From: Haloprofundus salinisoli
GTDB lineage: Archaea; Halobacteriota; Halobacteria; Halobacteriales; Haloferacaceae
DNA length: 64,000 bases
Direction of reading: 5' to 3'
Assembly (NCBI RefSeq): GCF_020097815.1
Contig: NZ_CP083663.1
Span: 2,604,001 to 2,668,000, forward strand
Part shown: positions 23,759 through 55,800 of the stretch, one piece after another
How the letters are laid out: each line of letters starts with the position of its first letter
Position numbering within the stretch: position 1 is the stretch's first letter
Position numbers and translations under genes: made by a program
The notes under the pieces: generated by a model
Seen by the model: only the letters and a program-made list of their open reading frames with translations
Database searches by the model: none
Told to the model about the DNA's origin: nothing

Positions 23759-25216
23759 TCACCGAAGGGCGGAGTCGGCCCAGTCGGGCGTCTCGTCGGT
23801 GAGCGCGATGACGTTCTCACGGCCGACGTTTATCTTCGTGAGTTTGCCCTCCTCCTCCATCCGCGAGAGGAGGCGGCTGACTTTCGACTTCGACCACTCG
23901 GTTCGGTCGACGATCTCGCTCTGTCTCACCCGACCGCTCTCCTCCTGGAGCATCTGGAGGACGCGGCCGTCGTCCGACAGCGGCACCTGGGTCTCCACCG
24001 GCGGTGCGCTCGCCGGGCCGTCGACGACGGGGTCGGACTCCTCCGCGCGCCGGTTGCCGTCTGTCTTCACCGCCTTGACGACGTCGCTGCTTTGTTTGCG
24101 AACCACGGCGGGGACGCTGTACCCGCTCCGACGGTACCAGACGCCGAGACCGGCGAGCACGGCCAGCGCCAAGCCGGCGAATCCGACGGTCGTGGCCGGA
24201 TTGGTCGGGTCGGTGCCCAGGGCGATCTCCTGGCTGTCAGTCAGGCTGTCACCGTCGGTGTCGACGCGTAGTGGGTCCGTACCGCGTAGATCGTCCTCGG
24301 CGCGGTCGGTGAGACCGTCACCGTCGGTGTCGGAGTTCAGCGGGTCCGTGTTGTGTCTGTCGACCTCCTCGCCGTCGAGGAGTCCATCGCCGTCCGTGTC
24401 CTCGTTCCGCGGGTCGGTCCCCAACGCGAGTTCCTGACCGTCGGTGAGGCCGTCGTCGTCGGTGTCGGGGTCCTGCGGGTCCGTCCCGTGGTCGTTGACT
24501 TCTGCACCGTCGGTGAGGCCGTCGCCGTCGGTGTCGGAGTTCAGCGGGTCGGTTCCGAGAATTATCTCTTGCTGGTCTCGGAGGCCGTCGTCGTCGGTGT
24601 CGGGGTCCTGCGGGTCCGTCCCGTGGTCGTCGACCTCCGCGCCGTCGGAGAGGCCGTCGCCGTCGGTGTCGCGCGAATCGAGGTCGGTCCCGAGTTCGAC
24701 TTCGCGTTCGTTCACCAGGCCGTCGCCGTCGTAGTCACCGCTTCGTTCGATGAACGTGTACGTGCTGGTCGTCTCGGCGACGGTTTCCTCGTTTCCGAAG
24801 CCGCGAGTGGCGACGACAGTGACGTTACGCTCGCCGGAGATACCCTTCGGATATCGCTCGAAGTCGAAGGTGACTTTCCGCGACCCGTTCGGGTCGACGT
24901 TCATCTGCTGGCAGTCGAGCTTGACCCGCCCGCCGTCACCGTTCTCGACGTAGGCGCAGAACTCGTACAGCGAGCTGTTGCCGGCGTTGTGAAAGCGCGT
25001 CGAGAGCGTACTCGACTCGTTCCGCCAGACGTACGTCTGGTCCTCCTGCTGAACGGTTCCTTCCTCCGAGAGCGAAATCGGCTCGAACGAGGAGTTCGCA
25101 CTCGGTGCGGGCTGCGATGCGGCGACCGGAGTTGCCGCCACGAGCGCGGAGGCGCTCGCAATAGCCAGTAGGAGGGCTAGCATCGTCCGGGCGACTCGGT
25201 GATTCGATTGCGTCAC
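23759..25216 (-). CDS. TSP3-repeat membrane protein with cytoplasmic winged helix
   Basis: About 485 residues from a GTG at 25216. A signal peptide ends near PVAASQP. Next come a 110-residue beta domain and then eight thrombospondin-type-3 units of about 22 residues (pattern [17 protein letters not shown], residues about 160-336), each able to bind Ca through spaced Asp. A membrane helix (about 340-359) and linker lead to a winged helix at about 415-472 ([20 protein letters not shown]). It would be a membrane-tethered DNA-binding protein with a calcium-type outer domain. A second short frame (25296 to 25213) ends GTGA on this start. Earlier starts in frame exist. Confidence 0.85.
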
Positions 25217-37847: not shown

Positions 37848-39227
37848 GTGGCTGACGACGACCCGACGCCTGACCCGACCGACGCGCGCAAATCGAACGC
37901 GACGCCCGCCGAGCGTCTCGACGTCGGTTTCCTCCCCGTCGAGGTCCCCGGTCTCGACGGCACCGGCGCGACGTACACCGCCGCTCTCCTCATCCGTGAA
38001 CTGTCTAAACACCACGATTTGACGGTGTACGTCGTTAGCCAGCGAACCGCCGACCGGTCACAGCTACCGGCGACCGACCGCGTCGACTACGTCGTCCGCG
38101 ACGACCTTCCGAAACTGCCGCACCCCCTCCTGACGAAAATCGACGTCGTGGAGGACCTCGCCAACCGGCTAGAGCGACACGACCTCGTCCACTCGTACTC
38201 GACGGGGTTCATCGAACCGCTGTCGTCGCTTTCGACCCCGACTGTCGTGACGTTGAACTCCTACCAACCGGTGTGCCCGAAGGGCGATATGATGTGGATG
38301 GACCGCGAAAAGTGCGGCGGACCCGGTCGAGCCAAATGCACGGCCTGCATCGCCGGGAGCGCATACACTCGCAAGTCGGGCGCCGAGACGACGCTCCGGT
38401 CCTCCTACGACTCGCTCGCAAAGGTCGAGTTCGTCCAAAACTCCATCGCGGCGCGGGACGGCATCTCAGCCTATCATCTGTTGTCGCCGCACCAGCGCGA
38501 CGACTACGCCGACTTCGGCTTCCCCGAGGAACGGCTGAAGGTGATTCCGCACTTCGACAGCGGCGAGTTCGCCGTCTCCGAGCCGGCGGCGTACAAACGC
38601 GGCGGCGATCCCGACCTGGGACGGAGCGAGGAGGACCCGTTCACGCTGCTCGCCGTCGGCGCGTTCAAGTACGTAAAGGGCTTTCAGGTGCTGCTCCGAG
38701 CATTGCCGTCGATACTCGACGCGGGCCACGACGTGCGCGTTCGCATCGCCGGGGCCGGCCCGTACGGCGACGCGCTTCGGTCGCTGTCGACCGACCTCGG
38801 CGTCGACGACCACGTCGACTGGCTGGGGTTCGTCGACCACGACGACCTGCCGGCGGAGTACGCCGCCGCCGACGCGTTCGTCTATCCCGGTCTGCTCGAC
38901 GAACCGTTCGGCCGCGTCTTCCTCGAAGCGCTGTCGAGCGGGACGCCCGTGCTCTCCTCGGACGTCGGCAGCACCGATTTCATCGTCGGCGACGCGGGCG
39001 TCCGCTTCGAGTCGGACGACCCCGAGTCGCTCGCCCGCGCGTTCGGACGCCTGCGAGAAGGGTACGACGGTTACCGAGCGGCGATTCCGGGCCAGTTGGC
39101 GCGTTTTTCGCGGGAACGGGTCGTCGGCGAGTTCCTCTCGCTGTACGCCGACGTTCGGGCCGGGCGGCGTCCGACCGAACGGACTGAAACGTTCGAAACG
39201 GAGCGAACAGTCGTTCGCCCCGATTAG
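37848..39227 (+). CDS. family 4 glycosyltransferase with Cys cluster
   Basis: A 459-residue GT4. The N-terminal domain opens with VGFLPVEVPGLDGTGATY and includes a four-Cys cluster (CPKG...KCGG...KCTACI, about residues 142-168), seen in a subset of bacterial GT4s and probably structural metal binding. The donor half has VGAFKYVKGFQVLLRAL, DAFVYPGLLDEPFGRVFLEA with the EX7E acid pair, and LSSDVGSTDFI. The GTG start is forced by an in-frame TGA at 37839; an acidic frame just upstream may be a shifted N-terminal extension. The sugar is unknown. Confidence 0.88.
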   Translation: MADDDPTPDPTDARKSNATPAERLDVGFLPVEVPGLDGTGATYTAALLIRELSKHHDLTVYVVSQRTADRSQLPATDRVDYVVRDDLPKLPHPLLTKIDVVEDLANRLERHDLVHSYSTGFIEPLSSLSTPTVVTLNSYQPVCPKGDMMWMDREKCGGPGRAKCTACIAGSAYTRKSGAETTLRSSYDSLAKVEFVQNSIAARDGISAYHLLSPHQRDDYADFGFPEERLKVIPHFDSGEFAVSEPAAYKRGGDPDLGRSEEDPFTLLAVGAFKYVKGFQVLLRALPSILDAGHDVRVRIAGAGPYGDALRSLSTDLGVDDHVDWLGFVDHDDLPAEYAAADAFVYPGLLDEPFGRVFLEALSSGTPVLSSDVGSTDFIVGDAGVRFESDDPESLARAFGRLREGYDGYRAAIPGQLARFSRERVVGEFLSLYADVRAGRRPTERTETFETERTVVRPD

Positions 39228-39305: not shown

Positions 39306-40676
39306 ATGAAGGACGACAGTCGAAGCCGAAGACGGTTCCTCCAGACCACCGGTGCGGCCGGCTTGGCCGGTCTCGCCGCCGTCGCGGGTTGTAGCGGCCA
39401 GTCGCCCGACGACGCCAACGACTCCGCCGCCAACGGGTCGACCCAGAGCGCGAACCAGACCGCGGGCGACGGCGCGGCGACCGACGAACCGGCCGAGACC
39501 GACGAACCGGTCAGCGACGAGGCAGCGGAGGTGGAGACGACGTACAAGAGCCGCGAGAAGTACAACGAACCGGGAGAGTTGCTCGACGATTTCACCGACC
39601 TCTCGACGTGGCTCTCGAACGCGGGCGAACTGGAGCCCTCCTCCGAGCACGCCTTCCGCGGCGACAAGAGCGCGAAACTCGTCGGCAAGGGCGGCGACAA
39701 CGCCAGCATCGCGCGTTCGTTCGAGAACAACCGCGACCTCACGAAGAAGGACTTCTCGCTCGCGCTGCGCTCGACGACGCCCTCGAAGTTCGCGCTGTTC
39801 GTCTACCTCCGCGACCCGTTCGGCAACTACGCCGTGCTCGAACTGCGGAACATCACGATGGAGACGCCCGACGTGGGCTGGTTCCGCACCGCACCGGGCG
39901 TCTACGAGACGAGCAACACGCCGCCGGACCTCACGCAGATTTCGCGCATCGAAATCGTCGCCAACAACGCCACCGGCGACGATATCGAGGTGTGGGTCGA
40001 CGACCTGCGCATCCACGACAAACCCGACAAGGGCTACATCGTCTTCAGCTGGGACGACGGACGCAAGAGCTACTACGACGACGCCGCACCGCTCCACGAC
40101 GAGTTCGAGGTCCCGGCCGTGCAGGCCGCCGTACCGCGGTTCGTCGGCCAGGAGAACTTCATGACGCTCGGCGAACTGAAAGAGCGTCACGAGGCCGGCG
40201 ACGAGATCGTCGCCCACGAGAGCATCCGCAACCGGTTCCACTCGCTCTCCGGCGACGAACTCGAGAAGACGGTTCGTCAGAACAAGCAGTGGCTTCTCGG
40301 CCACGGCTTCGAGGGCTCGAACTTCGTCGTCTACCCCGGCAACGATTACGACGCGACGGCGCTCGACGTCGTCAACAAGTACCACTACATGGGCGGCATG
40401 AACCAGTCGTTCGAGCCGAACACGACGAGCGCGTACGCGTTCGACCCGCTGGTGTTGCCGCGGACGGTCGGTCACGACCTGGACATCTCCAAGCGCGTCG
40501 TCGACCTCTGTGCGGAACACCAGAACGTTGGCATCCTCAACTTCCACGACTTCAACAACGACAACACGATGAGCAAAGGCGACTACCGGAAGCTCCTCGA
40601 ACACGTCACGCAGAAGGAGGGCATCGAGGTCATCAACTTCTCTGACCTCTGGAAGCTCCGGAAATCCGCGCCGTAA
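39306..40676 (+). CDS. Tat lipoprotein polysaccharide deacetylase
   Basis: A 456-residue exported lipoprotein. A twin-arginine signal SRSRRRFLQTTG and lipobox VAGC (about residues 26-29) precede an acidic spacer to residue 80. A jelly-roll-like beta domain occupies about 85-240. A NodB-type deacetylase domain begins YIVFSWDDGRKSYY, where DD is the usual first motif. The second motif, normally HxxxH, reads AHESIR, so one metal His is replaced. Polysaccharide N-deacetylation outside the cell is inferred; the changed His makes activity uncertain. ATAGTAATGG about 33 bases upstream is the promoter. Confidence 0.85.
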   Translation: MKDDSRSRRRFLQTTGAAGLAGLAAVAGCSGQSPDDANDSAANGSTQSANQTAGDGAATDEPAETDEPVSDEAAEVETTYKSREKYNEPGELLDDFTDLSTWLSNAGELEPSSEHAFRGDKSAKLVGKGGDNASIARSFENNRDLTKKDFSLALRSTTPSKFALFVYLRDPFGNYAVLELRNITMETPDVGWFRTAPGVYETSNTPPDLTQISRIEIVANNATGDDIEVWVDDLRIHDKPDKGYIVFSWDDGRKSYYDDAAPLHDEFEVPAVQAAVPRFVGQENFMTLGELKERHEAGDEIVAHESIRNRFHSLSGDELEKTVRQNKQWLLGHGFEGSNFVVYPGNDYDATALDVVNKYHYMGGMNQSFEPNTTSAYAFDPLVLPRTVGHDLDISKRVVDLCAEHQNVGILNFHDFNNDNTMSKGDYRKLLEHVTQKEGIEVINFSDLWKLRKSAP

Positions 40677-41563: not shown

Positions 41564-43102
41564 TTACGGATACTCGTTGAGATACGCTCGCAGTCCCGCG
41601 GACCCGAGATCCTCGATGCCGTTTTCGAGGACGCTCTCCTTGATGGTCACGCCGCTGCTCTGGTCGTACAGCTGGACCGCCTCCTTGCCGCCGGTCGACC
41701 CGGCCGTGAGTTCCTCCATCCACGTGTCGTCGCCGACGTTGACGACGGGATAGCCACCGGAACGGTACCGGCCGCCGTAGAGGAAGCAGTCGTCGCCGGT
41801 GAGTTCGATGCCGTGGCGGTATCGCGTGCTTATCTGGTCGATGGTGACGGCGCGAATCTGGGTGTTGTCCCGGTCGGCGCGAATCGCCGCACGGAAGGTG
41901 TCGTCGCCGACGTTGCCGGTGAACGTACAGTACTCGGCGACGACGCGGGCGGGGTTCAGCCCGTCCTTAGTCCAGAGGCCGTAACCGCCGGGGGTATGCT
42001 GTTCGATATCGCTACGGAGGAGCACGGTCTCGCCGGCCTCCGGCGAGACGACGACTCCGTGGTTCGGTCGGTCGCCGTCGACGCTGATGGAGAGCCCCGA
42101 GAGCCACGCGGAGTCGGCGCTGTTCTGCACCGACACCGCCGCGCCGTTGGCCGCATCGAGTCGAATCGTCGTGTCGAACACCGACAGTCCCGACCCGTTT
42201 TCGAGGCGGATACCCCGCTGAGAGACGTCGTACTCGCGGGTTCGGTCGACGACGACCGTCGCGCCGCGGACGTAGCTGTCTCGTCCGGCGAGTCGGATGC
42301 TCGCCGCCCGGCTGTTTCGGTACTCGCCGCCGCGGACGATCACCTGACCGTCGTCGTCGGAGACGTAGAGGCCGTTGTCGGGGAACGCGCCGAGTTCGCA
42401 GTCGCGGAACTCGATGGTTCCCTCGTGGTTCACGTCGACGAGGATGCCGGTCGGTCCCCACCGAAGGTCGCCCGGTGTCTGAGTCGAGTACGCACCGCCG
42501 TCGGGTGCGCGGAAGTTCTCGACGAGGCCCGACCCCGACGAACTGGTGATGTTGAACAGCCCCGGCCCCCACGTGCCGCTGTCGTGTTCGCCGACGATGT
42601 CGATGTCTCGGACGACGAGGCCGTCGTCGACTTCGACGTGGAAGGCGCGGATACCCGTGTCGGCGGCGGTCTGGTCGATGGTGAAGTTCTCGATGTGGAG
42701 GTCGGTGCCGGGGTCGTAGGAGACCCCGAGGCGGAACAGTCGGTACCGCGGGCCGTCGAACTCGTAGTAGTTCGCCGGGACGATGGTCGCGCCGTTGCTG
42801 GCGAGTCCGAAGTTCTCGAACCCGGTGAAGCGGAACTGCTCGTCCATGTAGTACCGGCCCGGTGGAAACTTGACGAGCGTGTCGTCGTCCGCTACGTCGC
42901 GCAGAACTGGTGTAATCGACTCGTCCCCCTCCGGGTCGGCACCGGCGTCGACGATGTCGACGACGGTTCCGTAGTCGTCGTTCAACGAGTGCGTCGCGGC
43001 GGCGGTGCCCGAAGACGATGCGACGCCGAGGGCGGCGGCCCCGGCCAGTGAGAGATACGAGCGACGATTCAGTTGCCTGTTTCGAGAGTTGTCGGTAGGC
43101 AC
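41564..43102 (-). CDS. Tat-exported right-handed beta-helix protein 1
   Basis: A 512-residue protein from GTG 43102, chosen because AATAAAATAC lies 28 bases upstream; an ATG at 43138 in frame overlaps that box. A Tat signal (NRRSYLSLAGAAALG) is followed by VVDIVDAGADPEGDE and many 22-24 residue coils typical of a pectate-lyase-like beta helix (DCELGAFPDNGLYVSDDDGQ; HTPGGYGLWT). Such proteins cut or epimerise polysaccharides. It shares long identical blocks with the protein at 45865, including HDSGTWGPG and VVSPEAGET. Catalytic residues cannot be assigned. Confidence 0.85.
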   Translation of the reverse strand: MPTDNSRNRQLNRRSYLSLAGAAALGVASSSGTAAATHSLNDDYGTVVDIVDAGADPEGDESITPVLRDVADDDTLVKFPPGRYYMDEQFRFTGFENFGLASNGATIVPANYYEFDGPRYRLFRLGVSYDPGTDLHIENFTIDQTAADTGIRAFHVEVDDGLVVRDIDIVGEHDSGTWGPGLFNITSSSGSGLVENFRAPDGGAYSTQTPGDLRWGPTGILVDVNHEGTIEFRDCELGAFPDNGLYVSDDDGQVIVRGGEYRNSRAASIRLAGRDSYVRGATVVVDRTREYDVSQRGIRLENGSGLSVFDTTIRLDAANGAAVSVQNSADSAWLSGLSISVDGDRPNHGVVVSPEAGETVLLRSDIEQHTPGGYGLWTKDGLNPARVVAEYCTFTGNVGDDTFRAAIRADRDNTQIRAVTIDQISTRYRHGIELTGDDCFLYGGRYRSGGYPVVNVGDDTWMEELTAGSTGGKEAVQLYDQSSGVTIKESVLENGIEDLGSAGLRAYLNEYP

Positions 43103-43245
43103 GTCTCTCACGCGCTGCTGAATGTATTTTATTACCACGCAGCTAATACTCCGAAGCCCGCGTCACAACGCTCGAAACAATTGAATCACACAGAATTGTG
43201 GATTTTCGTCCCTTCAAATAGACATCAAAATCCAGAGAAATCGGC

Positions 43246-45657
43246 TTAGAACAGTGACGCCGACCGAAGCGCCAGGAGTGCGCCGAACAGGCTAGCGTCG
43301 TCGTTGCTCGTGTCGTCGCCCGACGACGTGTCTGTCGTCGTCGGTTCCGACGTTGTCGTCTCTATCGGTTCCGACGTGGTCGGTTCCGACGTCGTCTCGT
43401 TCGGCGTCGAAGTGGTCGTCTCCGTCGGTTCCGATGTCGTCGTGGGTTCCGATGTCGTCGTGGGTTCCGATGTCGTCGTGGGTTCCGATGTCGTCGTGGG
43501 TTCTGACGTTGTGGTCGGTTCCGACGTTGTCGTCTCAGTCGGTTCGGACGTCGTCGTCTCTATCGGTTCTGACGTCGTCGTGGTCGTGTCGTTCGGCGTC
43601 TCCGTCGGTTCCGGCGTCGCCGTCTCGTTGGGTGTCGAAGTGGTCGTGTCGTTCGGCGTCTCCGTCGGTTCCGACGTGGTCGGCGGCGTCTCCGTCGGCG
43701 TGTCGGACTGATCGCCGTCGCCGCCATCGCCGTTGTCTCCGTCGTCGCCGTCGTTGCCGTCACCATCGTCGTCGCCACCGCCGAACCAGTCGCCGATACC
43801 GCTGGAGTCGTCGTCACCATCGTCACCGTCGCCGCCGGCGTCGTCACCGCCGCCGCTTTCGGGCGTCTGTGTCGCCGTCGACGCGTTCGACTCGCTCGTG
43901 CCGTTCGCCCCGGTCCGGTTGCCGCCGTCGCCGGCGGTGGTCTCGTTTGACGCGTCCGGGGTGGGTGTCGGCGTCGGTGTCGCGGTCTCCGTGGTGTTGG
44001 CGTAGTCGGGTATCGACGGACCGCCGCCGTCGCCGCTGTCGCCGCCCACGTCCGCGAGGACGACGCCGCCGGCGGCGACGAACAGCAGAAGGCCGGCGAC
44101 GAACATGCCGCGCTGCATCACATTGGTCCCGCCGTCGGTGACGAGCCGGGTGTGCCGCCAGTAGAGGTCGTCGCCGACGCTGCCGATGGGACCGGGGAAC
44201 TCCGCGAGCAGTTCGAGTATCTCGCCGACGCCGAGCGCACCCGTGAGACACGCGACGCAGACGAACAGCAGCAGGCCGACAGGCGGGACGACGACCAACG
44301 AGAGCAGGTCGTTGCCGACGAGCGACGGGAGGATGAGGACGAGGGGGGCCGCGATGCCGATGGTTGCCAGACTCCGGAAGAGGCGGGCCTCCGAGACGGG
44401 GTCGAAGCCGACCTTCTTCGCGCTCCAAAGGTGAAAGAGGAACATCGTCCCGTAGCCGATACTGGTGGCGACGGCCGCCCCGCGCATGCCGAACTGCGGG
44501 ATGAGCGTGACGTTGAGCGCGACGTTGATGGCCGCCGCCGCGCCCGTCGCGGCAACCGGGAACTTCATCGTCCCGTTACCCTGCGCGACGGCGAGAATCG
44601 GGCGCGCGACGGCGAATCCGACCGTCCCCGGCAGGAGCAGGATGAGCGGGATGACCGCGTTGACGAACTCCTCACCGAGGTAGAGGGGGACGACGACCGG
44701 TGCGAGCGCCGCGAGACCGAGCGCCATGATACCCGTAAACAGCAGCGTGTAGCGCGTCGTCTGCGCCGTGAGTTTCGAGATTCGCTCGGTCTGCCCTTTC
44801 GACCACATCTCGGAGGTAGAGTGGACGAACACCGTCTGGAAGGCGATGGGGGCGAACCAGAGGAACTCCGCGATGGCGAGCGCGCCCTTGTAGTGGCCGA
44901 CGACGGCGTTCGGTTCCCAGTACTGCAGCATCAGGATGTCGAGGTGGTACAGCGACATCATGAGCGCCATCAGTACGATGCTCATCCCGTTGAACGTCAG
45001 CATCTCGCGGCGCGGAAGCGTGTCGGGCGCACCCCGAAACACCGCCGAGAGCGACACCTGCTTGCCGACCAGCACCAGGCCGATGAGACCGACGACGATA
45101 CCGGAGACGAGGTGACCGAGCAGCGCGCCGAGGACGCCGTGGCCGAGGACGACAAGCGAGACGCCGATACCGATGAACAGAAGCGAGTCGAGAACCCGAA
45201 GGGGTTCCGAGTACTCTTCGAGACCGAACCCCATCAGCGTCCGGCGGGTGTACGCGCGGAACTGCGCGGCGACGACGAGTCCGGCGAGAACCGCCGCGTA
45301 CTGGACGAACGTGTCGCCGAACAGCACGCCGCCGATGCCGGTCTCGGCGATGACGAGCACCGCACCGCTCCCGATGACCGCGAGCACGATGGCGACGCGG
45401 AAGTAGAAGCCGACGACGGCGTCTTCCCAGTTCGGCGCGTTTCGGTCCTCGGCGATGTACTTGCGGACACCGTCGGTGACGCCGGAACTGACGAAGATCA
45501 TCAAAAGCGCGAACACGGAAAGCAGCGTCGTGTACGCGCCGACGTTCGCATCGCCGAGTTCGCGGTACAGAAGCGGCGTCGTCGCCGCGCCGATGATGAG
45601 CGTGGCGACGCGACTGCCGCCGACCGAGAGGATGCCTTTGAGGATCGACCGGTCCAT
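43246..45657 (-). CDS. oligosaccharide flippase with long Thr/Ser/Glu/Pro tail
   Basis: An 803-residue protein. Residues 1-500 are a 12-14 helix MOP-superfamily (Wzx/polysaccharide-biosynthesis) transporter that flips lipid-linked glycans: SVGGSRVATLIIGAATTPLL, then NGMSIVLMALMMSLYHLDIL, and AVAQGNGTMKFPV. An extra helix at about 517-540 leads to a tail of about 260 residues, predicted outside, with acidic Gly/Asp runs, at least eight NxS/T sequons, and tandem TTSEP/TTTSEP units encoded by 18-base repeats. It ends SLFGALLALRSASLF. It is flanked on both sides by beta-helix genes on the same strand. The tail is not part of the family. Confidence 0.88.
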   Translation of the reverse strand: MDRSILKGILSVGGSRVATLIIGAATTPLLYRELGDANVGAYTTLLSVFALLMIFVSSGVTDGVRKYIAEDRNAPNWEDAVVGFYFRVAIVLAVIGSGAVLVIAETGIGGVLFGDTFVQYAAVLAGLVVAAQFRAYTRRTLMGFGLEEYSEPLRVLDSLLFIGIGVSLVVLGHGVLGALLGHLVSGIVVGLIGLVLVGKQVSLSAVFRGAPDTLPRREMLTFNGMSIVLMALMMSLYHLDILMLQYWEPNAVVGHYKGALAIAEFLWFAPIAFQTVFVHSTSEMWSKGQTERISKLTAQTTRYTLLFTGIMALGLAALAPVVVPLYLGEEFVNAVIPLILLLPGTVGFAVARPILAVAQGNGTMKFPVAATGAAAAINVALNVTLIPQFGMRGAAVATSIGYGTMFLFHLWSAKKVGFDPVSEARLFRSLATIGIAAPLVLILPSLVGNDLLSLVVVPPVGLLLFVCVACLTGALGVGEILELLAEFPGPIGSVGDDLYWRHTRLVTDGGTNVMQRGMFVAGLLLFVAAGGVVLADVGGDSGDGGGPSIPDYANTTETATPTPTPTPDASNETTAGDGGNRTGANGTSESNASTATQTPESGGGDDAGGDGDDGDDDSSGIGDWFGGGDDDGDGNDGDDGDNGDGGDGDQSDTPTETPPTTSEPTETPNDTTTSTPNETATPEPTETPNDTTTTTSEPIETTTSEPTETTTSEPTTTSEPTTTSEPTTTSEPTTTSEPTTTSEPTETTTSTPNETTSEPTTSEPIETTTSEPTTTDTSSGDDTSNDDASLFGALLALRSASLF
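43427..43534. repeat. 18-base tandem repeats in the flippase tail
   Basis: Four almost identical units (43427-43444, 43445-43462, 43463-43480, 43481-43498; GGTTCCGATGTCGTCGTG) and two diverged ones follow each other. They encode six-residue TTTSEP-type units on the minus strand. The near identity at DNA level suggests recent slippage expansion. Confidence 0.85.
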
Positions 45658-45864: not shown

Positions 45865-47514
45865 TTAGAACTCGTTGCCCCACGCGCGAAGGTCGTCTTC
45901 GGACTTGTCGTAGATGCCGTTGACGAGCGTATTCTGTTTGACGTAGGCGTCGCGGCTGGGTTCGTACAGATACAGCGCGTAATAACCGTCAGTCGATTCG
46001 GCGTACGTGCTCTCGACGCGGAGGCCGTCGCCGTAGTTACAGATGGGCCGTTCGCTCGCGAGGTACTCCCCGCCGTATATCATACAGTCGTCGCCGACGT
46101 TCTCGATAGCGCGGCGGTGGCCTACGCCGGTCTGGTCGACGGTCACCATCGAGAACCGCGCGTTGTCGCGCGCACAGAAGATACCCGAGCGTGCTCCCTC
46201 GTCGCCCACGTCGCCGGTTATCTTCACGCTCTCGCAGTTCACCCGCGCCGTCCGGGTAGTGTCGGTGAGTTTGATACCGTAGCCGCCGGGGGTGTTCATG
46301 TCGATGGCCGTGCGGTAGATGGTGGTCTCGCCCGCCTCCGGAGAGACGACGATACCGTGTTTCACCTTGTCACCGGCCATCGAGATACGGACGTCCTGAA
46401 TCCACGTCGACTCGCAGGTGTTCATCACCGTCAGCGCGTGTCCGTTGACCGACGGGATGCGAATATCGGTGTCGTGAACCGAGAGGTTCGCACCGTTTTC
46501 GAGGCGAATCGCCCGCTGGTTGACGTCCTGCGGGCGGTTGTCGTCGACGACGATGGTCGCGTTTCGGATCTCGCTCCCGTCGCCGCCGAGCCGGATGTTC
46601 GCGGTGTCGCTGTTCTTGTACAGGCCGCCGTCGACGACGATTTTCCCGGTCCCGCCGGAGGCGTACAGGCCGTTGTCGGGGAACGCGCCGAGTTCGCAGT
46701 CCTTGAACGTCAGCTCGCCGCGGTTGTGGACGTTCGAGACGATGCCGCTCGGCCCTTTCCAGAGATTTCCGTCGTTGGGCGTCTCGTCGACCCACGCGCC
46801 GCCGCCGGGAGCGCGGAATCGCTCGACGATACCGACGCCGTCCGCGTCGGTGACGCAGAACCGACCCGGTCCCCACGTGCCGCTGTCGTGGTGGCCGACG
46901 ATGTCGATGTCGCGGACTTGCAGTCGCTTCGACGCGAGGGCGTCGATGACGCGGATACCCGTGTCGTCGGCGGTGAAGTCCACCTCGAACCCCTCGAATC
47001 GGATGTCGGCACCCGGGGCGTAGTGGACGCCCAGTCGGAAGAGCCGATACTGCGGTCCCTCGAACTCGTGGTAGTCCGCCGGAACGAGCGTCGCGTCGTT
47101 GCCGACGACGCCGAACTTCTCGAAGCCCGAGAACCGGAACTGTCGGTCCATCCGGTAGCGACCCGGCGGGAAGACGAGAAGCGTGTTGTCGCCGCGGAGA
47201 TTCTCCAGCACGTCGTTTATCGGCTGGTTGCCGGTGTTGTCGGCACCCGCTTCGACCACGTCGTACACGCGGTCGTACTCCGCGAAGAGGTCGGTCATGT
47301 CGGACGAAGACGCCGCGCCGACACCGGTGCCCAACCGGATACCGGCTCCGGCGACCCCCACGCCGAGAACGCCCTTGAGATAGCCACGTCGTGTTCGGTT
47401 CGTCGCATCGTCGTTCGATTCTACTGTCCCTTCGTTTCCGCAGACGTACGTATTGTTCGGCATAGTGTTTGACCCGTCGCACCCCCACTCATCCTCGAAA
47501 ACGGTGTTCGACAC
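45865..47514 (-). CDS. Tat-exported right-handed beta-helix protein 2
   Basis: Up to 549 residues from GTG 47514; an ATG at 47463 is the alternative start. A Tat-type signal (NRTRRGYLKGVLGVG) sits at about residues 39-60 from the GTG. The body is a beta helix with YDVVEAGADNTGN, GPQYRLFRLGVHY, HDSGTWGPG, CELGAFPDNGLY and TPGGYGIKL, shared with the protein at 41564 across the whole length. They are paralogues made by duplication around the flippase. A polysaccharide lyase, hydrolase or epimerase role is inferred from fold only. A mini-ORF ends four bases before the GTG. Confidence 0.83.
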   Translation of the reverse strand: MSNTVFEDEWGCDGSNTMPNNTYVCGNEGTVESNDDATNRTRRGYLKGVLGVGVAGAGIRLGTGVGAASSSDMTDLFAEYDRVYDVVEAGADNTGNQPINDVLENLRGDNTLLVFPPGRYRMDRQFRFSGFEKFGVVGNDATLVPADYHEFEGPQYRLFRLGVHYAPGADIRFEGFEVDFTADDTGIRVIDALASKRLQVRDIDIVGHHDSGTWGPGRFCVTDADGVGIVERFRAPGGGAWVDETPNDGNLWKGPSGIVSNVHNRGELTFKDCELGAFPDNGLYASGGTGKIVVDGGLYKNSDTANIRLGGDGSEIRNATIVVDDNRPQDVNQRAIRLENGANLSVHDTDIRIPSVNGHALTVMNTCESTWIQDVRISMAGDKVKHGIVVSPEAGETTIYRTAIDMNTPGGYGIKLTDTTRTARVNCESVKITGDVGDEGARSGIFCARDNARFSMVTVDQTGVGHRRAIENVGDDCMIYGGEYLASERPICNYGDGLRVESTYAESTDGYYALYLYEPSRDAYVKQNTLVNGIYDKSEDDLRAWGNEF

Positions 47515-53069: not shown

Positions 53070-54173
53070 ATGCGCGAGGAGGCAGCTATCGAATCGACTA
53101 TCGAGCGGTATCTCGACGGCGTCGAGGCGGGCAACTCCCGGAAGAACTACCGGTCGGTGTTGACCGAGTGGGCCGCGTGGCTTCGAGCGGAGGCGGGTGT
53201 GACCGCAGTCGACGCGGTGACGGTCATGCACTGTCGGCGCTACGCCCGCCACCTCAAGAGACTCGTCCGCGACGGCAACCTCCGAGCGAGCACGGCGAAC
53301 ACGTACTACGCGTACGTCCGAGCGTTTCTCGGCTTCTGCGTCGCCGACGAACTCGCCGCGACGAATCCGGCAAAATCGGCGCGCGCGACCGACGAACTCC
53401 CCGAAGACCACGGTGATAGGGACCGGCAGTTCTGGCGTCGTAAACAACGTGATGCTATACTGACCTACGTCGATCGGCGGACCGAGGAGGTCCAGTCGGA
53501 CGGCTCCGACCGAGAGATTCGCCGAGCGTTCCGGAACAGAGCGCTCGTCTCGTTGCTGGCGCTCTCGGGAGTCCGCGGCGGCGAGGTGTTCGCCGCGACC
53601 GCCGACAAGCGACGGGTTGGACTTCGATGGACGGACGTCAACCTCGACGCCAACGCCGTCCGGGTGTTCGGAAAGTCCCGCGAGTACGAGTACGCGCAGT
53701 TACCGGAGCGTGCGGGTGCGGCGCTTCTCGACCACCGCGAGCGGTGTGAGCCCGCGGATGCGTCGTGGCCGGTGTTCCCGACCGCTCACGGTCCGTCGCT
53801 TCGGCGGGCCGTCGAGACACAGCTCGGCGAGCGAGGGTGGACTGACGAGGAGATCGACGAACGCTGTTCGGAGCTACCTCTACCCGCCGTGCTCCGCGAG
53901 GAGCGAGTGACACCGCCGTCGCTCACGACGGACGGCGCGCGGAGCGTGATGAAGCGACTCTGCGCCGACGCGGAAATCGACGTGCGCGGCGAGTATCTCA
54001 AGCCGCACGGGGCGCGGCGCGGACTCGGCCACGAACTGTACGCCAACGGCCACGCCGAGCTCGCGCAATCGGCGCTGAGACACGCGAGCATCGAGACGAC
54101 CCACGAGTCGTACTCCGACATCCGGGCGGCCGAGACGGCGAGAGAAGTCGACCGAGTTCTGAAGCGGGACTAA
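53070..54173 (+). CDS. tyrosine recombinase/integrase
   Basis: A 367-residue site-specific recombinase. The N-terminal SAM-like domain (residues 8-105, NSRKNYRSVLTEWAAWL) binds DNA. The catalytic residues are all present: Arg in LSGVRGGEV, Lys in VFGKSREYE, HxxR in LKPHGARRGLG, His in LRHASIET and Tyr in HESYSDIR. It could be an element integrase or a host recombinase. No att site or element genes adjoin it; it overlaps the stop of the convergent PRC-barrel-like gene by four bases and lies 770 bases from parA. A leaderless start is likely. Confidence 0.9.
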   Translation: MREEAAIESTIERYLDGVEAGNSRKNYRSVLTEWAAWLRAEAGVTAVDAVTVMHCRRYARHLKRLVRDGNLRASTANTYYAYVRAFLGFCVADELAATNPAKSARATDELPEDHGDRDRQFWRRKQRDAILTYVDRRTEEVQSDGSDREIRRAFRNRALVSLLALSGVRGGEVFAATADKRRVGLRWTDVNLDANAVRVFGKSREYEYAQLPERAGAALLDHRERCEPADASWPVFPTAHGPSLRRAVETQLGERGWTDEEIDERCSELPLPAVLREERVTPPSLTTDGARSVMKRLCADAEIDVRGEYLKPHGARRGLGHELYANGHAELAQSALRHASIETTHESYSDIRAAETAREVDRVLKRD

Positions 54174-54908: not shown

Positions 54909-54946
54909 GACGGTCCACCCAGTCCGGGCCGGGTGAGCGCCGATGA
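54851..54946 (+). CDS. 31-codon leader mini-ORF overlapping parA
   Basis: The basic peptide starts MKRPTVGTRC and contains CTNC after a further Cys and His, so it could bind zinc if made. Its TGA overlaps the parA ATG (ATGA). GGGTGA inside it lies about six bases before parA. Codon composition is not strongly coding-like, so a purely regulatory role is as likely. Confidence 0.35.
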   Translation: MKRPTVGTRCSHRRQCTNCRRSTQSGPGERR

Positions 54947-55800
54947 GTCGCGCGGTGAGCGTCTCGCTACAGAAGGGCGGCGTCGGCAAGACCACCGTCG
55001 CCATCAACCTCGCGGACGCGCTCGCGGCACGCGGCAACGACGTCCTCCTCGTCGACTTAGACCAGCAGGGGAACGCGACGGAGGGCGTCGGGTTCAAGGA
55101 GTACTACGAGTCCGAGGGGCCGCACATCGGCGACGTGCTTACCGAAGACGACCCCGTCGACATCGACGCGGTGATTCGCGAACGCGAGGGGTTCGACGTC
55201 GTCCCCGCGCACGTCGACTTGGACGGTGCGGAAGACCGAATCCGTAACTCGACGTTCGGCGTCCTGTGGGTCCGCCGACGCATCGTCGAACCGCTCCTCG
55301 GCGACAGATACGACTACGTGGTCATCGACTCGCCACCGAGTCTGGGGCCGCTGTCGGACGCGGCGCTCATCGGGTCGGGGAACGTCATCGTCCCGCTTTT
55401 GATGAGCGAACCGAGCGTCAGCGGATTCGAGCGGATGTGGGAGCAACAGATCGTTCCGATTCGCCAGGAGGTGGACCTCGAGCTGCTCGCCATCGTGCCG
55501 AACGACCTCAGCGGTAACAACGAGGAGAAGCGCATCATCGACGACCTCGAAACCTCTCCGTTCGCCGACTATCTCCCGGCGTTCGCCCGGAGCGCCGAGT
55601 TCGACGACGACGACTCCCCCGGCCCCGGCGTCCGTCGACGCATCGCGTTCCGACGTTCGTGGCGCGACGGCAAGACGCTACGCGAGTACGAACCGGACAA
55701 CGACATGGTCGGCCGACTCGACGAACTCGCACGCGTCGTCGAAGCCGGGACCGTCGACGTCGGCGAGAGCGAGACGGAAGAGGTGACGGCCAGTGCCTGA
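54943..55800 (+). CDS. parA: ParA/Soj-family partition ATPase
   Basis: A 285-residue Walker-type ATPase that positions DNA or protein cargo. It has the deviant Walker A KGGVGKTTVAIN (residues 11-22) with the signature Lys, Walker A' LLVDLDQQGNAT and Walker B YVVIDSPPSL. There is no N-terminal HTH, so it is the short ParA type. It overlaps the next gene by eight bases, the usual layout for a partition pair. Whether it acts on the chromosome or on a relict plasmid is open. Confidence 0.9.
   Translation: MSRAVSVSLQKGGVGKTTVAINLADALAARGNDVLLVDLDQQGNATEGVGFKEYYESEGPHIGDVLTEDDPVDIDAVIREREGFDVVPAHVDLDGAEDRIRNSTFGVLWVRRRIVEPLLGDRYDYVVIDSPPSLGPLSDAALIGSGNVIVPLLMSEPSVSGFERMWEQQIVPIRQEVDLELLAIVPNDLSGNNEEKRIIDDLETSPFADYLPAFARSAEFDDDDSPGPGVRRRIAFRRSWRDGKTLREYEPDNDMVGRLDELARVVEAGTVDVGESETEEVTASA

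Follow-up and report, generated by a model that had tools for sequence, protein, structure and literature searches.

The closest described counterparts of the transporter reported here are Wzx-type flippases, represented by WzxE, and the lipid II flippase MurJ. In bacterial Wzx/Wzy systems with a Wzz co-polymerase, the flippase operates alongside a membrane protein whose extracytoplasmic part is large. To our knowledge, it is unsolved how flipping, polymerisation and the passage of a polysaccharide through the S-layer are coordinated in haloarchaea. In the window, that is, the whole 64,000-nucleotide stretch of Haloprofundus salinisoli DNA that was analysed, a single unbroken reading frame of 803 codons was found to encode a standard MOP flippase core to which a haloarchaeal module, consisting of a fifteenth helix and a long tail, is joined (Table 1).

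Table 1. Positions of the flippase gene, its parts and its neighbours in the window.
Feature	Position	Strand	Basis
MOP-superfamily flippase with helix 15 and predicted outer tail, whole gene, 803 aa	43246..45657	-	same fused frame in 5/5 Haloprofundus genomes
Flippase core, aa 1-486, 14 helices	44200..45657	-	PF01943/PF01554; AlphaFold pLDDT mostly >90; WzxE and MurJ folds
Helix 15, aa 512-538	44044..44124	-	AlphaFold model; alignment; topology count
Disordered tail, predicted outer, aa 539-803, nine sequons, Thr-rich, acidic	43249..44043	-	composition counts, shuffles, AlphaFold
Mid-tail island GIGDWFGGG, aa 620-628, within Asp/Gly run	43774..43800	-	in 5/5 Haloprofundus tails
TTSEP-type repeat block, about aa 655-780	43318..43695	-	12 TTSEP; period-18 tandem array
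C-terminal hydrophobic island SLFGALLALRSASLF	43249..43293	-	terminal hydrophobicity; conserved in genus
Tat-type beta-helix protein 1	41564..43138	-	PF13229; neighbourhood counts
Tat-type beta-helix protein 2, paralogue of protein 1	45865..47514	-	PF13229
GT4 glycosyltransferase	37848-39227	+	same cluster
Predicted Tat lipoprotein polysaccharide deacetylase	39306-40676	+	same cluster

The core matched the Pfam families Polysacc_synt (PF01943, E=2.5e-11) and MatE (PF01554, E=3.2e-06), both above the cut-off; the MurJ profile also matched it, but below the cut-off. An AlphaFold model, for which 44 homologues served as input, showed a confident 14-helix core up to about residue 486, a fifteenth helix at residues 512-539 and, after it, a tail with pLDDT below 50. 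When the model was compared with known folds, WzxE was the closest (Z 37.7, rmsd 2.9 over 403 residues), and MurJ gave Z values of about 30 over about 450-470 residues. All of these alignments ended at or before about residue 489, and helix 15 and the tail fell outside them. A search of solved structures with the flippase sequence gave no match, and the link to these structures is one of fold comparison. WzxE shares with the haloarchaeal protein its core fold, its family (PF01943) and a gene context of glycan synthesis, whereas its solved chains, 17% identical, can be aligned no further than about residue 417 and lack both helix 15 and an outer tail. MurJ shares the 14-helix arrangement, but its aligned chains (13-15% identity) stop before helix 15, and its solved chains lack a disordered outer tail.

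Within the genus, the core was 92% identical to that of the Haloprofundus marisrubri homologue. The window also contains GT2, UDP-sugar dehydrogenase, GlmS, phosphoglucomutase-family and DUF1616 genes, and this gene content fits exopolysaccharide or glycan synthesis. The sequence match, the MOP fold of 12-14 helices and the glycan or exopolysaccharide gene setting together place the protein among MOP polysaccharide flippases of the Wzx type.

Helix 15 has the class-wide consensus Q-x-x-L-x-x-x-G-x-x-L-F-V-x-G, with an invariant Gly in the alignment, and the loop leading into it was predicted to be cytoplasmic. Lys and Arg together made up 13.2 per 100 residues of the predicted inside loops but 2.7 per 100 of the predicted outside loops. 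Because an additional helix follows the fourteen of the core, because of this bias and because the 265-residue tail contains only two basic residues, the tail was placed outside. Thus, according to the topology count, the tail very probably faces the exterior of the cell.

The same fused reading frame was present in all five Haloprofundus genomes, with open frames of 824-864 aa. In a class-wide sample, a homologue (E <1e-80) was found in 170 of 391 genomes. Sixty-one homologues, namely those of 60 fetched loci and of the window, were sorted by architecture; since the loci were chosen to span all architectures, the following counts are not frequencies. Helix 15 with a tail was found in 32 proteins, helix 15 with an end within about 10 residues in 14, and neither in 12, while the remaining three lacked helix 15 and had a basic or charged coiled-coil extension instead. 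Tailed homologues occurred in GTDB families f1, f2, f3, f4, f6, f7 and f8 and include those of Haloferax mediterranei, Halomontanus rarus, Halomicrobium urmianum and Halobaculum halophilum. Of the 14 helix-15-only proteins, 13 belonged to one f4 clade. An earlier sequence-only reading had described the protein as a flippase to which an extra helix and a mucin-like, sequon-rich tail are added, and the reading frame, the AlphaFold model, the sequons and the TTSEP units bore out this description, as did the presence of the tail in close relatives and in many other genera. It had also stated that such flippases normally stop at their last helix; this is incorrect for haloarchaea, whose flippases commonly have helix 15, either with a tail or without one. 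At loci L095, L096 and L097, a C-terminal coiled-coil extension without helix 15 ended in DELRRGR and is presumably cytoplasmic.

On the tree of homologues, which has an arbitrary root, several open deep forks and places where long branches meet, the tailed state required nine changes, at least five of them forced by well-supported branches, and the helix-15-only state required two. A single tailed clade was rejected because of the nine changes. The tail thus appears on this tree to have a mosaic history, and we make no claim as to the direction of gain or loss. Among 406 called genes in 464 kb of the genome, 55 of which encode proteins with at least four helices, only the flippase had both a polytopic core and a mucin-like region. 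Across the 60 homologous loci, 30 polytopic genes were mucin-positive, and all of them were in tailed-flippase loci. No description of this flippase tail was found in the open-access papers that were searched.

The tail in the window is composed of 73 Thr, 30 Ser, 33 Asp, 32 Gly, 28 Pro and 26 Glu among its 265 residues (39% Ser/Thr and 22% Asp/Glu), and both of its basic residues are Arg. The TTSEP units are encoded by a tandem array with a period of 18, as detected by TRF; in sister species, TETET or TTSTPTE took the place of TTSEP. With its long, disordered tandem repeats rich in Ser, Thr and Pro, the tail has the sequence properties of a mucin-like region. Across homologues, tails contained 36-62% Ser/Thr in nearly all cases (20% in one) and 0-4% Lys/Arg.

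Shuffling the tail, either as a whole or locally, left 3.8-4.1 N-x-S/T sequons, against the nine observed (p about 0.002). Of the 174 Asn residues in 23 non-redundant tails, 138 were in sequons, whereas 74.8 were expected from 500 local shuffles, which reached 96 at most; these counts are partly non-independent because of repeat expansion. Sequons were rejected as a universal feature of the tails, since many tails have only 0-2 Asn, though the sequons that are present are enriched. An oligosaccharyltransferase of the STT3/AglB type is encoded elsewhere in the genome. The tail may plausibly be a stalk and is probably glycosylated.

In the S-layer protein csg of Haloferax volcanii, a threonine spacer at the haloarchaeal surface is O-glycosylated (PMC8640222). 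The flippase resembles csg in having a Thr-rich spacer that would lie at the surface. However, csg is secreted and has its anchor at the C-terminus, whereas the flippase spacer trails a polytopic transporter that anchors it from the N-terminal side. Anchoring by archaeosortase was considered and rejected, since the PGF-CTERM signal gave no NCBIfam match and SLFGALLALRSASLF at the C-terminus has no PGF motif. The tails at loci L104, L105, L107 and L113 and that of the H. mediterranei protein (P0001) ended in a further hydrophobic segment (e.g. PLGGSPWFHSVLFVGIVALAGRSAR), and such tails may form a loop anchored at both ends.

Short hydrophobic islands interrupt the otherwise polar tail. The final 20 residues were 35% hydrophobic versus 2% in the tail body, and LFG or LFD was found close to the C-terminus in all five Haloprofundus tails. 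The mid-tail island contained DWF in four of these tails and DWL in one. Both islands contain a hydrophobic residue followed by F or W and then by G or D (a phi-F-G island), as in GIGDWFGGG and SLFGALL in the window flippase and in GGFFDDGD, GGGLFGGGD and GPIFGG in other tails. Forty-two such islands were counted in 25 of 39 tails versus 1.3 in shuffles (maximum 6), a comparison that is no independent test since the pattern was picked after the tails had been viewed. The remaining 14 tails had no island of this definition. Islands were about four times less dense in the other low-complexity regions of these genomes, where two of the six control matches were in the flippase of locus L103 itself.

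The helix and tail were also found together as a protein of their own. At six loci of family f9 (L191 and L193-L197), the flippase had no helix 15 and ended about 15-30 residues past the match, and an ORF of 191-260 aa was located on the same strand 0.2-1.8 kb downstream. In one example, the encoded protein contains IQRALLVLGVSLFVVGLGITAGLPGGDL and continues as an acidic Asp/Gly tail. The separate f9 tails repeat PIFG or PVFG, with one copy at the C-terminus. The flippase gene and the tail ORF are directly adjacent at L196, and a gene on the opposite strand separates them at L197. In family f3, a 126-aa ORF (L118:7599-7979, minus strand) encoding two helices with a Thr/Pro/Ser stretch between them overlapped the stop of an untailed flippase (ATGAGTGA); this arrangement, seen in a single genome, is either a natural split or a frameshift.

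When 145 genomes were searched with a profile of the helix-15 region, the fused forms were recovered together with single-pass proteins at E values of about 4e-9 to 1e-5. These proteins of Natrialbaceae-like genomes (L171-L180 and L187-L190) are encoded mostly 20-36 kb from a helix-15-only flippase and contain a helix-15-like segment and an acidic tail, often together with two CarboxypepD_reg-like (Ig-like) domains; several of their genes adjoin glmS. A transmembrane profile can draw in unrelated helices, but a chance match is disfavoured because of the shared neighbourhood, and the proteins are likely homologous to the helix-15 region. They are candidates for functional stand-ins for the dropped tail. 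The occurrence of this unit in fused, shortened, missing and separate forms among relatives suggests that it has a genuine function within the polysaccharide export machinery.

The reading that we favour, to which we give about an even chance of being right, is that of a Wzx/MurJ-type flippase with an anionic tether or brush that spans the envelope and contacts later export steps or the polymer. The substrate that the flippase moves across the membrane would be a sugar unit linked to a lipid, probably dolichol, and it would serve an exopolysaccharide or glycan cluster. Helix 15 would turn the C-terminus outside and put the disordered tail between the membrane and the S-layer, where glycosylation and charge would hold it extended and soluble at high salt. 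One or two phi-F-G islands, in the middle of the tail and at its C-terminus, might make contact with the emerging polymer or with a component that acts later in polymer assembly or export, and by such contacts the product would be handed over close to the flippase exit. The proposal draws on the integrity of the gene, the predicted fold, the recurrence across the class, the enrichment of sequons, the islands and the separate nearby proteins, and from these we infer the outside location, the glycosylation, the tether function and the binding by islands. Counting against a tether are the fast turnover of tail sequence, the many tails with 0-2 Asn, the 14 of 39 tails without a phi-F-G island and the fourteen homologues that retain helix 15 but drop the tail.

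A bolder form of this proposal, possible but rather doubtful in our judgement, is that helix 15 and the acidic, Thr-rich tail constitute a dedicated extracytoplasmic partner module, mostly fused and elsewhere separate, whose phi-F-G motifs would recruit or organise an archaeal polymerase or export factor. Such a module would be a disordered counterpart of bacterial co-polymerases. Wzz serves here as a working analogy: it is a folded chain-length regulator, whereas the flippase tail is disordered, and no homology between them was seen.

Other explanations of the tail were weighed against the tether. A frameshift, an assembly error or a two-gene fusion in one genome has a negligible probability, since an unbroken frame is found in many other genera besides the five Haloprofundus genomes and since the H. 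mediterranei homologue, E6P09_RS17120, is annotated as a single 851-aa protein; the sequence-only reading had foreseen two objections to a tailed flippase, such an artefact and the lack of a tailed orthologue, and independent genomes that carry the fusion answer both. The same reading had proposed that the tail docks the neighbouring exported beta-helix proteins. NCBIfam gave no match for either of the two proteins, which are encoded on both sides of the flippase gene in each of the five Haloprofundus genomes, and their homologues were near 35 of 46 helix-15 flippases versus 1 of 15 others (Fisher p=2e-6, with related loci counted separately). However, among the helix-15 types, no positive link with the tail was found: beta-helix neighbours accompanied 13 of the 14 tail-less flippases and 22 of the 32 tailed ones, and the other 10 tailed flippases had no beta-helix gene within about 8 kb. 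These counts indicate that the beta-helix genes track the helix-15 type of cluster and not the tail. Because of this double dissociation, docking was rejected as the main role, and a docking arm for the two flanking proteins is very unlikely. Loci without beta-helix genes mostly contained an asparagine-synthase-like gene instead.

It is also conceivable that the tail has no specific role, being a low-complexity extension that grew by repeat slippage behind a membrane helix and was tolerated. The quick turnover of repeats between sister species, their tandem structure and the f4 clade that keeps helix 15 without a tail all agree with such an extension, which has a modest chance of being the true explanation. 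However, the mucin-like region was specific to the flippase among the sampled polytopic proteins, sequons and phi-F-G islands exceeded the shuffles, and untailed f9 flippases have a separate helix-and-tail gene beside them. The numerous potential O- and N-sites on a tail that would face outward are what a glycan acceptor would offer, with Thr and Asn bearing the exported polymer and the flippase anchoring the polysaccharide to the cell, but several tails are nearly devoid of Asn and a transporter would be an unusual anchor for bulk polymer; we consider this explanation unlikely.

The split forms and the recurrent islands set this tail above an ordinary low-complexity tail. Because of the split forms, the helix-and-tail unit can be tested alone, and its phi-F-G islands offer short motifs as candidates for contact sites. 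A specific genetic handle on the coordination of export is provided by this subfamily of flippases, in which the tail recurs and which has a tailed member in the genetically manipulable H. mediterranei.

Several further genes were observed at these loci. At L104 and L105, a gene for a Thr-rich lipoprotein-like product (lipobox TTAGCSS) is located on the same strand about 130 bp upstream of the tailed flippase. In the window, a gene next to glmS (23759-25216, minus strand) encodes a protein that looks secreted, with seven TSP3 repeats and, at its C-terminus, a DUF7343/HTH domain. Beyond the polysaccharide genes, a tyrosine recombinase of the phage integrase family (53070-54173, plus strand) is followed by a ParA-like gene (54943-55800).
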